The notes beneath the pieces are model-generated. The model saw only the letters and a list, made by a program, of their open reading frames with translations. It was not told where the DNA came from and ran no database searches. 41,083 nucleotides of DNA, from positions 10,139-51,221 of the forward strand of contig PCTW01000033.1 of assembly GCA_002786715.1 (NCBI GenBank), in the 5' to 3' direction. Positions 4,018-7,416 of this stretch are shown here, one piece after another (positions within the stretch are counted from its first letter, which is position 1; every line of letters begins with the position of its first letter). The position numbers and the translations under genes were made by a program. Source of the stretch: Bdellovibrio sp. CG22_combo_CG10-13_8_21_14_all_39_27. GTDB lineage: Bacteria; Bdellovibrionota; Bacteriovoracia; Bacteriovoracales; Bacteriovoracaceae.

Positions 4018-4237
4018 TGAAGTCGTCCTATTAAGCCTAAGTTTATAAGTCTTTATACTCAAATTAGGACCAAAAACCAAGGGAACTATGAAATATTGCC
4101 ACCCTGTTAGAAAATAAGACGGTTCGGTCTAGGTGAACAGTAAAAATTTCAAGCTTGTACAAGGAATACCATCACGGCTCCCAAATTGAGCTATATTGCG
4201 TCTAAATTCATTTAACCGTTCTCGGAGGGAGAATCCT

Positions 4238-5731
4238 ATGAAAAAGCCAATAGCATGGCGATTAGCCGTATTAAGTACAACGATGTGGACATCTTTAGTC
4301 ATGGCCCAATCTCATCAAAATGCAGAACTAGGACAGTTCTTACAAGAGTTTCATCAGAACCCATCTCAAGTAATGGACCAATTGCCAGCTAAGACGGCCA
4401 AGCAAGCAAGCTTGTTTAACCAGTCTGATAAAGAAGATAATCAATTCGTAGCAAAGAAAGATTTAAACCGCGCCCAAGTTCTTCAAGTTCAAGGCCGCGC
4501 AGGAATGCAATATAATGACCTCGCTGAAAACCTCGTTGATAACGGTCGTGATCTCATCAGTAATCTAGGTGAAATGGATGAGAAGGAACTTCAAAAGGCC
4601 CAATTGGCCGAAAGTCCATGGTCTGATGATTATTGGGCCATTGCCAAAGGCATTTTAGGTTCACGTTATGCTGATCCAGATAAGAATGAAACTTTTGATT
4701 GGAAAGACAATTTCGAATTTACAAAAACTAATCCAGTTACAGATTATATTACTAATGGAAATATTGATTATTTATCTCCATCAGAAAAATACGATCTTCT
4801 TATGGGTGATGAGAATTACACATTAACGAAGAAAATGTGGGCCGAAGGAAAAAGCTATTATGATCAATCTGGAAAGGTCGAAGATTGGATGGGAATCTGT
4901 CACGGTTGGGCTCCAGCAGCCTACATGGTAGAGCGTCCAACCAATTCAGTTAAAGTTAAAGACGTAACAGGAAAGCATGAAATTACTTTCTTCCCATCGG
5001 ATTTGAAAGCCTTAAGTTCACTTCTTTGGGCCAATGGAAGAACAAACTCTAACTTTATCGGTGGTCGTTGTAATGCAAAGAATCCTGCTAAAGATAGAGC
5101 AACAGGACGTGTAACCGATCAGGAATGTTTTGATACAAACCCTGGCTCTTGGCATAAGGCCGTTGTTAACCAAATTGGTGTAAGCAAGCGTTCATTTGTT
5201 ATCGATGCAACTTATGATTACGAGGTTTGGAATCAACCCGTTTTCGCTTACAGCTACAGATACTTTAACGTCGAAACTGGTGAAACAGCGACAACTTACG
5301 ATAAAGCGGTGATTAAGCTTGCTGATTTCTCAAAAGATAAATTTAAAGATTTCAGAGACTCAAAGACGAAGAAAATTGTTGGTGTTGAAATGAGACTTGA
5401 ATATGTTGTGGAAACTCAACCATCACATAGCAAGACAGACAGCTCAAATAGAGACGCAACAAACACTGCTCTTTACCGTTATGACCTAGAGCTCGATGCC
5501 AAAGGAAATATTGTCGGTGGTGAATGGTATTCAAATGCCCACCCAGATTTCTTGTGGACTCCACCAGTTGGTGAAAAAGTAAGAACATCTGTTGATCGTT
5601 ACATGAACGGGAAGACTCTTGAAGACGTTGTGACCAAAGGTTCAAGATTTAGTCCAAGAACTTCGGCTCAAGGATTACCACTACCATTGGTTATCGAAAA
5701 ATTGATTAAAGAATCACGCACTGAAAAATAA
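4238..5731 (+). CDS. Secreted transglutaminase of the GP42/TGase-elicitor type with a Pep-13-like motif
   Basis: 497 residues after a Sec signal (MKKPIAWRLAVLSTTMW to about residue 25, VMAQ). GGAGGGA 8 bases before the ATG fixes the start; 14 further upstream codons are not needed. The centre carries the features of the oomycete elicitor transglutaminases (Pfam TGase_elicitor): catalytic Cys221 in GICHGWAPAA, likely His306 in GSWHKAVVN and Asp323 in FVIDATYD. Immediately after comes VWNQPV at residues 330-335, the invariant core of Pep-13, the surface peptide of Phytophthora GP42 recognised by plants. Such enzymes are Ca-dependent, have a papain-like triad and cross-link Gln to Lys side chains. 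The N-terminal ~180 residues may act as a pro-region, as in GP42. Homologs outside oomycetes are known from marine Vibrio. A strong terminator follows. Confidence 0.8.
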   Translation: MKKPIAWRLAVLSTTMWTSLVMAQSHQNAELGQFLQEFHQNPSQVMDQLPAKTAKQASLFNQSDKEDNQFVAKKDLNRAQVLQVQGRAGMQYNDLAENLVDNGRDLISNLGEMDEKELQKAQLAESPWSDDYWAIAKGILGSRYADPDKNETFDWKDNFEFTKTNPVTDYITNGNIDYLSPSEKYDLLMGDENYTLTKKMWAEGKSYYDQSGKVEDWMGICHGWAPAAYMVERPTNSVKVKDVTGKHEITFFPSDLKALSSLLWANGRTNSNFIGGRCNAKNPAKDRATGRVTDQECFDTNPGSWHKAVVNQIGVSKRSFVIDATYDYEVWNQPVFAYSYRYFNVETGETATTYDKAVIKLADFSKDKFKDFRDSKTKKIVGVEMRLEYVVETQPSHSKTDSSNRDATNTALYRYDLELDAKGNIVGGEWYSNAHPDFLWTPPVGEKVRTSVDRYMNGKTLEDVVTKGSRFSPRTSAQGLPLPLVIEKLIKESRTEK

Positions 5732-5740
5732 TTTTGGATG

Positions 5741-5769
5741 AAGGTCCCTTCGGGGACCTTCTTTTTTTT
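5741..5769 (+). terminator. Strong intrinsic terminator after the transglutaminase gene
   Basis: AAGGTCCC, tetraloop TTCG, GGGACCTT (5741-5760), then C and eight T. The 8-base-pair stem is perfect with a very stable UUCG loop. The last T of the run is immediately followed by the ATG of the clostripain-like gene, so terminator and start codon touch. Confidence 0.92.
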
Positions 5770-7416
5770 ATGCTAAAACTGCTCGCGATCTTATTACTCT
5801 TTCAAATTTCAGAGGTCTCAGCTCGACCTTCATGGGCTCCTTTGGTCTCTTGCCAAAAAGCTTGGAGTCATCTTAAAGAATCAGGTCTTGATAAATATCA
5901 ATTTGAAACAGATTCACAAATAACCGAACAGGGAAACATCGGTTATCAAAAATATAAAAAACGCGTTAACAGAGATAATTGTTCTAATAAATGGACTGTC
6001 CTCATTTATATGGCCGCAGATAATGATTTGTCGGCATACTCCTTTTGGGATCTCTATGAAATGGAGAGAAAAATCAAAGGTGAGCTCAATCTTGGAGCTA
6101 GCGGTGATGATATCGACGTTATCGTTGAATGGGATAATAAAAAACGCAATGGTTTGAGAAGAATGCATATCTTTCAATCCGATAAAGAGTATGATTCGTC
6201 ATTAACGAAATCCGATTTTGAAGACATGTCGGAGAAAGAGATTCTCTCTCCCATCGTACAGCTTCTTCCCGAAGTCGGTCCAGGTTCCGAGCGAGATCAA
6301 TCGAAGCGTTTTCAATCTTTTCTCCAATGGGGAGTAGAGAATTATCCCTCAGATCACTATATGGTGATTGTCTGGGGGCATGGGGAAGGCTTTATTGGTC
6401 AACATTATGAGCGAAGAATGCGTTGGGAACAAATGCAAAATAATTCTCGCCGCCATGAACGTTCACGATTGTTATTGCGGGAAGATGTACGTCTAGAATT
6501 AGGTCAAGGAGCTGATCGTCCTTCAAATTATCCCGTTGATAAAGTTTTTGGAGGAGTTGCCTTTGATTATTCAGAAATGTCTTTTTTGGATATTCCTACG
6601 ACTAGTAAAATTATCGATAATCTTGTTGAGTGGACTCTCGAAGGCCAAAAGATAGACATTCTGGGTTTTGATGCTTGCTTGATGCAATCACTCGAAGTTT
6701 CAAGTCAGTTTATTTCAAATTCAAACTTTATGTTCGGATCTACACAAGTCCAAAATTATTTGGGTCTTCCTTACAGAAGCTTGATTGATCAACTTCACAC
6801 TGGAAAAAGTACAAGTGAGATGGCCTTTGAAATCCCAACCTTGATTGAGAAATCTTTTAGAGAGGGTTATCAAGGCGCGATCGATCCCGAGGGACAGAAA
6901 ACGTTTACAGCTTCTTCGTTTAACTTAGAAGCTTTGAAATATGAACTTCTTCCGGCATTAGATGATATGTCGCAAGCTCTGATGGATTATCTCAAAGAAG
7001 ATTCAATGCGAGTTATCGATCTTAATTTTATTCTTGAACAGAATGAAGCTTTTCAAGGTGAGACCAGAGATGTCGGCGTCTTTCTTGGTGCCATTTTAAA
7101 GCTTCTCTATCTTGAAAAAGAATCCAATGGCGAAACAGAGACGATGTATGAATTGCACGGTGAAATCATAAAGAGTTTGTCCATTCTTCATCAAATGACA
7201 CTCTCGCGTGCTTATGGCGATCTTTATACAACTCAGGTTGGTCGTGAGGCTCAAACCTATCTTTTGGGCTACTTTAAAGGTCTGGGAGTTTGGATTCCTC
7301 GCAACGCTGAACAGTTTGAGCATCGCAAGAAGGAATTTGAGCAAAGTCTGCTCTGGCAGTCGGTTCCAAAGTGGGGCCAAGTGCTTGAAATGATATATAC
7401 CGAGCCAGAGCTGTGA
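5770..7416 (+). CDS. Secreted clostripain-family (C11) cysteine peptidase
   Basis: 548 residues from ATG 5770, which opens a signal peptide (MLKLLAILLLFQISEVSA). The family signature is plain: WTVLIYMAADNDLS near residue 75, then YMVIVWGHGEG with the catalytic His204, then ILGFDACLMQS with the catalytic Cys303. C11 peptidases (clan CD) usually cleave after Arg or Lys and are often self-activated. The start is unusual. The T run of the upstream terminator ends at the A of the ATG, so no ribosome-binding site fits between. The frame stays open upstream to a TTG at 5734, which would encode the terminator hairpin itself as DEGPFGDLLFF. Expression by read-through, or a start inside the hairpin, are both possible. 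With the transglutaminase it makes a pair of secreted protein-modifying enzymes. Confidence 0.88.
   Translation: MLKLLAILLLFQISEVSARPSWAPLVSCQKAWSHLKESGLDKYQFETDSQITEQGNIGYQKYKKRVNRDNCSNKWTVLIYMAADNDLSAYSFWDLYEMERKIKGELNLGASGDDIDVIVEWDNKKRNGLRRMHIFQSDKEYDSSLTKSDFEDMSEKEILSPIVQLLPEVGPGSERDQSKRFQSFLQWGVENYPSDHYMVIVWGHGEGFIGQHYERRMRWEQMQNNSRRHERSRLLLREDVRLELGQGADRPSNYPVDKVFGGVAFDYSEMSFLDIPTTSKIIDNLVEWTLEGQKIDILGFDACLMQSLEVSSQFISNSNFMFGSTQVQNYLGLPYRSLIDQLHTGKSTSEMAFEIPTLIEKSFREGYQGAIDPEGQKTFTASSFNLEALKYELLPALDDMSQALMDYLKEDSMRVIDLNFILEQNEAFQGETRDVGVFLGAILKLLYLEKESNGETETMYELHGEIIKSLSILHQMTLSRAYGDLYTTQVGREAQTYLLGYFKGLGVWIPRNAEQFEHRKKEFEQSLLWQSVPKWGQVLEMIYTEPEL

Follow-up and report, generated by a model that had tools for sequence, protein, structure and literature searches.

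What does a transglutaminase (TGase) of the type of Phytophthora sojae GP42 do in a bacterium of the Bdellovibrionota, why does its gene stand directly ahead of one for a clostripain-like (C11) peptidase, and how is it related to the oomycete enzyme? Here we address these questions for a locus in a 41,083-nucleotide stretch of DNA, hereafter the window, which comes from a genome of 4.08 Mb that is 99.8% complete. We propose that the two genes encode a secreted TGase zymogen and its dedicated Arg/Lys-specific C11 activator, a reading to which we give a probability of about 0.62 and in which the cleavage step is deduced from comparative evidence.

Results

Domain, fold and active site of the transglutaminase

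The open reading frame is complete, begins with ATG and encodes a protein of 497 amino acids (Table 1) that, judged by its domain, is a typical member of an enzyme family already known. The PF16683 profile (TGase_elicitor) scores 148 bits against a Pfam gathering cut-off of 25, phmmer aligns the protein with GP42 (PDB entry 3TW5) at E 5.3e-29, and NCBIfam holds no model for it. The AlphaFold model (mean pLDDT 86.6, pTM 0.85) has 3TW5 as its sole significant match in the PDB, with a TM-score of 0.68 by target length. In the phmmer alignment, Cys221 (in WMGICHGWAP) lies opposite the Ser that replaces the native Cys in crystal 3TW5 (C290S), and His306 (NPGSWHK) and Asp323 (VIDATYDY) lie opposite a His and an Asp. 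The original prediction had named this protein a GP42-type TGase with Cys221, His306 and Asp323 in the GP42 order and VWNQPV at residues 330-335; the profile search bears out the membership, each residue is found where it was placed, and the modelled fold agrees with that of GP42. Transglutaminase chemistry is accordingly the activity that we would expect of it.

The full Pep-13 element is absent, as only its first six of 13 residues are kept in a row: VWNQPV is followed by FAYSYRY, and the aligned segment of GP42 is VWNQPVRGFKV. Since VWNQP characterises the TGase_elicitor family as a whole, its presence implies no special link to plants. The N terminus, read by inspection, has the pattern of a signal peptide (KK, a hydrophobic stretch, then VMA/Q), which suggests that the protein is secreted. 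A second TGase copy, 42% identical, is encoded elsewhere in the same genome. At 1612-2475 the window encodes a lipoprotein-like protein whose match to murein endopeptidase M74 is borderline (25.1 bits, cut-off 25).

Table 1. Features of the TGase-C11 locus in window coordinates; a slash marks a predicted cut.
Feature	Position	Strand	Basis
Shine-Dalgarno GGAGGG	4224..4229	+	sequence; precedes TGase ATG
GP42-type transglutaminase (TGase_elicitor), 497 aa	4238..5731	+	PF16683 E 4.1e-43; PDB fold 3TW5 E 3.8e-20
Predicted Sec signal peptide, residues 1-23 (VMA/QS)	4238..4306	+	sequence inspection
Pro-region, residues 24-87 (64 residues)	4307..4498	+	AlphaFold2: helix 25-46, disordered 51-84
Predicted activation site Q85-G86-R87/A88-G89	4490..4504	+	G[RK] comparison and conservation
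TGase_elicitor domain, residues 113-444	4574..5569	+	Pfam profile
Catalytic Cys221 (predicted)	4898..4900	+	invariant in 37 aligned relatives; faces GP42 C290S
Catalytic His306 (predicted)	5153..5155	+	invariant in 37 aligned relatives
Catalytic Asp323 (predicted)	5204..5206	+	at least 90% conserved in 37 aligned relatives
Pep-13 core VWNQPV, residues 330-335	5225..5242	+	sequence
Terminator-like hairpin, 9-bp stem, UUCG loop, then T8	5740..5769	+	between TGase and C11, directly before C11 ATG
Clostripain-like C11 peptidase, 548 aa: His204, Asp301-Ala-Cys303	5770..7416	+	PF03415 E 6.2e-25; HGEG and DAC; PDB clostripain relatives
C11 linker (10 Arg) from catalytic His to catalytic Cys	6382..6672	+	candidate self-processing region, by clostripain/PmC11 analogy

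A conserved gene pair

A TGase gene followed immediately and on the same strand by a C11 gene was found in 47 genomes, which represent 15 families of Bdellovibrionota, so the suggested secreted, protein-modifying pair recurs well beyond the window; the reversed order, C11 before TGase, never occurs across these 47 paired genomes. Within the class of the window, Bacteriovoracia, every genome with a C11 match at E<1e-10 (23 of 23) carries a TGase gene immediately 5' of the C11 gene and in the same orientation, counting one genome (G030) in which the pair is split over two contig ends, L138 and L139, whose coding pieces fit. In most pairs the genes are 1-11 nt apart or overlap. Another 16 C11 genes have no adjoining TGase; several of them are shorter, generic ones, and C11s of the paired type occur without a TGase nearby at L174, L175, L177, L182 and L183. 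In the genome of the first of these (G223:C70), no PF16683 match was found. At two loci, L145 and L147, a second, divergent TGase without the G-R site stands directly behind the TGase-C11 pair.

The C11 protein of the window has a signal-like N terminus of its own and is predicted to be secreted as well. The D-x-C element, which includes the S1 Asp, is present in all 47 partner C11s. The enzyme concerned in Choi et al. is reportedly a C11 enzyme.

The two genes of the window are separated by a terminator-like hairpin (-17.4 kcal/mol, z -3.5). The same layout, with a stem sequence that differs each time, recurs at L113, L115 and L140 and in a weaker form at L139, and the hairpin of the window and its closest kin may set the ratio of the two products, with the protease below the TGase. 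We considered this terminator as an argument against the pair but set the objection aside, because only the nearest relatives have it and the genes of other pairs mostly abut or overlap. The next gene after C11 (7476-8396) encodes a 306-aa protein without a Pfam match. It has a counterpart of 48% identity after the pair in both L113 and L115 and is possibly a third member of the module.

The predicted cleavage site

Paired TGases share a common pattern in the pro-region, a Gly followed by Arg or Lys and then by Ala, Ser or another residue, ahead of D.AENLVD. The G[RK] dipeptide is present in the pro-region of 40 of 43 C11-paired TGases and in 2 of 55 unpaired ones (Fisher p 2e-21, a value that ignores ancestry). 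Both exceptions, L233 and L238, come from genomes with an unlinked C11; so does a further TGase with G[RK], L234, which lies at a contig edge and was excluded from the unpaired count. In nine genomes that hold both kinds, G[RK] is present in the paired copy and absent from the unpaired copy. The P2 Gly, P1 Arg/Lys and P1' Ala are the positions of highest information in the stretch, with 4.0, 3.6 and 3.5 bits. P1 is Arg in 33 of 43 paired versus 5 of 55 unpaired TGases, and 19 of the 55 unpaired proteins have a basic residue at this position, often Lys; hence cutting at a basic residue may be older than C11 pairing or be due to other proteases. Moreover, pairing is clustered on the TGase tree, with about six changes and only two independent contrasts on supported branches, and shared ancestry could therefore explain part of the association between motif and pairing.

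The modelled structure gives a second line of evidence that is independent of the motif comparison, namely a boundary between disorder and order. Residues 51-84 are the sole long disordered stretch of the model (pLDDT<50), and Gly86-Arg87/Ala88 opens the folded part.

Proposed mechanism and alternative readings

We propose that the first gene encodes a GP42-family TGase zymogen with a signal peptide, a 64-residue pro-region made of a helix and a flexible linker, and a papain-like core, and that the second encodes its activator, a cysteine protease that resembles clostripain and belongs to the C11 family with its Arg/Lys specificity. Both proteins would be exported, and C11 probably matures itself in its Arg-rich linker. 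It would then cut the TGase once after Arg87 (QG-R/AG) and release the pro-region, which presumably inhibits the TGase until that cut. The mature enzyme would crosslink extracellular proteins through Gln and Lys. The Bdellovibrionota are a predator-rich phylum, and the targets might be either the cell's own envelope or, in predatory members, the prey.

There is precedent for both halves of this scheme; the combination of a TGase with a C11 peptidase is new as far as we found in the literature. Clostripain, whose S1 site contains Asp229, is specific for Arg and needs a linker that lies between two Arg sites to be taken out (PMC11296011), and PmC11 accepts either Arg or Lys in P1 and cuts itself between KLK and A (PMC4850288); the S1 Asp of C11 enzymes stands two residues before the Cys (PMC4850288, PMC11296011). 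The C11 protein of the window resembles both in its His, the Cys of D-A-C and the Arg-rich linker between them, but differs in a long N-terminal extension and in its conserved place directly behind a TGase. On the side of the TGase, the enzyme of Streptomyces mobaraensis is a secreted proenzyme whose N-terminal pro-region is removed by the protease TAMEP (PMC9052465), and we propose that the window pair works alike, although the enzymes are unrelated: here the TGase belongs to the GP42 family, the activator is a C11 cysteine protease encoded beside it, and the proposed cut follows Arg or Lys.

Three other readings have to be weighed against the zymogen and its activator. Neighbouring genes of an operon often share a task without processing one another, and the two enzymes might simply be secreted side by side to act on outside protein such as prey or debris, with another protease maturing the G-R/K site. 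The Lys found there in many unpaired TGases would suit such co-secretion; we nevertheless regard it as unlikely, since G[RK][AS] tracks C11 pairing even within genomes and where the pair is unlinked, and the Arg or Lys in P1 is what C11 enzymes accept. It is less likely still that GRA..ND.AENLVD serves a TGase subfamily as a structural or docking motif, kept by descent and holding no cleavage site. The clustering of pairing on the tree and the conservation of the following D.AENLVD are what such a motif would produce, but conservation peaks on G-R/K-A itself, which in the model stands precisely where the disordered linker stops, and the swaps between Arg and Lys retain the charge, as expected of a protease site.

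The third reading concerns chemistry: the bacterial GP42-like domain might be a papain-like protease or a deamidase and not a crosslinking enzyme. The GP42 core is papain-like, a Cys-His-Asp triad also occurs in proteases, and TGase-like domains of bacterial toxins may be peptidases (PMC3482391). Against these points stands the best match in both sequence and fold, which is to the one enzyme of the TGase_elicitor family that has been reported as a Ca-dependent transglutaminase (PMC9879208), and we consider the alternative improbable, to about the same degree as mere co-secretion. Should the zymogen-activator reading hold, a large uncharacterised family of bacterial TGases gains a partner and a switch testable at a single residue. 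It also suggests a route by which Bdellovibrionota may harden or modify extracellular proteins, and biotechnology could make use of a two-enzyme crosslinking system that activates itself.

Family range and the relatives of GP42

Relatives of GP42 are described, in PMC4915311 citing Reiss 2011, as limited to oomycetes and some Vibrio. The range given in the original prediction, oomycetes with a few marine Vibrio, agrees with that literature and is outdated in view of the genomes searched here: TGase_elicitor matches occur in 208 of 369 Bdellovibrionota genomes (up to 17 copies), including 94 of 129 in the class of the window (at most 17 matches per genome), and in 45 of 189 Myxococcota genomes, and were absent from all 14 control genomes. 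In the Bacteriovoracia genera g36, g43, g45 and g21/g22 the family is expanded, and the genomes of many members have between about 5 and 17 matches each. A search of phage records and viral contigs yielded no relative of the TGase and hence no sign of phage origin, and a plasmid search yielded a single one, from Vibrio.

To place GP42 we used a tree of 90 sequences that contains one oomycete and one Vibrio protein, its bacterial members being the best matches to L003. GP42 falls within a Myxococcota-rich group of 54 sequences (support 99/96), and the Vibrio protein falls inside the clade of the window TGase (100/99). A clade joining GP42 with the Vibrio protein is rejected (AU p=0.0004), a grouping of GP42 together with the entire window clade is borderline (p 0.056), and a position of the Vibrio protein as sister to the window clade, instead of inside it, is not rejected (p 0.16). 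GP42 shares 44-48% identity with proteins of the Myxococcota group, its best match in the tree set being L073 at 48%, versus 29% with the Vibrio owensii plasmid homologue and about 30-34% with the window TGase.

The window TGase shares with GP42 (3TW5, PF16683) the domain, the fold, the order of Cys, His and Asp and VWNQPV, but differs in this low identity, in the absence of Pep-13 past VWNQPV, in its bacterial pro-region with the GRA site and in its C11 partner gene. The Vibrio owensii plasmid TGase (NZ_CP025798, WP_233902700) belongs to the same clade as the window enzyme, with 43% identity, but has a C-terminal ricin-type lectin domain, no C11 nearby, and PRVS in place of GRAG. At the 80 loci inspected for the Vibrio protein and the closest bacterial relatives of GP42, no C11 gene lies within 5 kb.

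The window TGase is no close relative of GP42, and the question of gene transfer between bacteria and oomycetes that had been raised for this locus should better be redirected to Myxococcota and oomycetes. A passage from an oomycete into the lineage of the window is highly improbable: the two share the family and the Pep-13 core, but in Bdellovibrionota and Myxococcota the family is widespread and deeply rooted, and GP42 is nested in the bacterial tree apart from the window clade. The double statement that Bdellovibrionota hold a conserved zymogen/activator pair for extracellular crosslinking, made of a GP42-type TGase and a clostripain, and that oomycete GP42 came from Myxococcota-type bacteria and not from Vibrio is one that we hold tentatively, at slightly less than even odds. 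The probable bacterial relatives of this classic elicitor of plant immunity would then be sought among Myxococcota and no longer in Vibrio. Our literature search returned no paper that links transglutaminase with Phytophthora and Nannocystis, and none that links it with Bdellovibrio and oomycetes or with a relevant predatory context.

Two metagenome-assembled genomes of the window's class encode, at L003 (G059:C42) and L004 (G058:C80), open frames of 1,100+ aa with PKD repeats, a GP42-like domain and PPC domains; this PKD-TGase-PPC protein is 44.5% identical to GP42 (42-45% for the GP42-like domain). A myxobacterial protein, L037 from the Polyangiaceae genome JAPYTK010000197, also metagenome-assembled, has VWNQPVRGYKV, which is nearly the Pep-13 core of Phytophthora.
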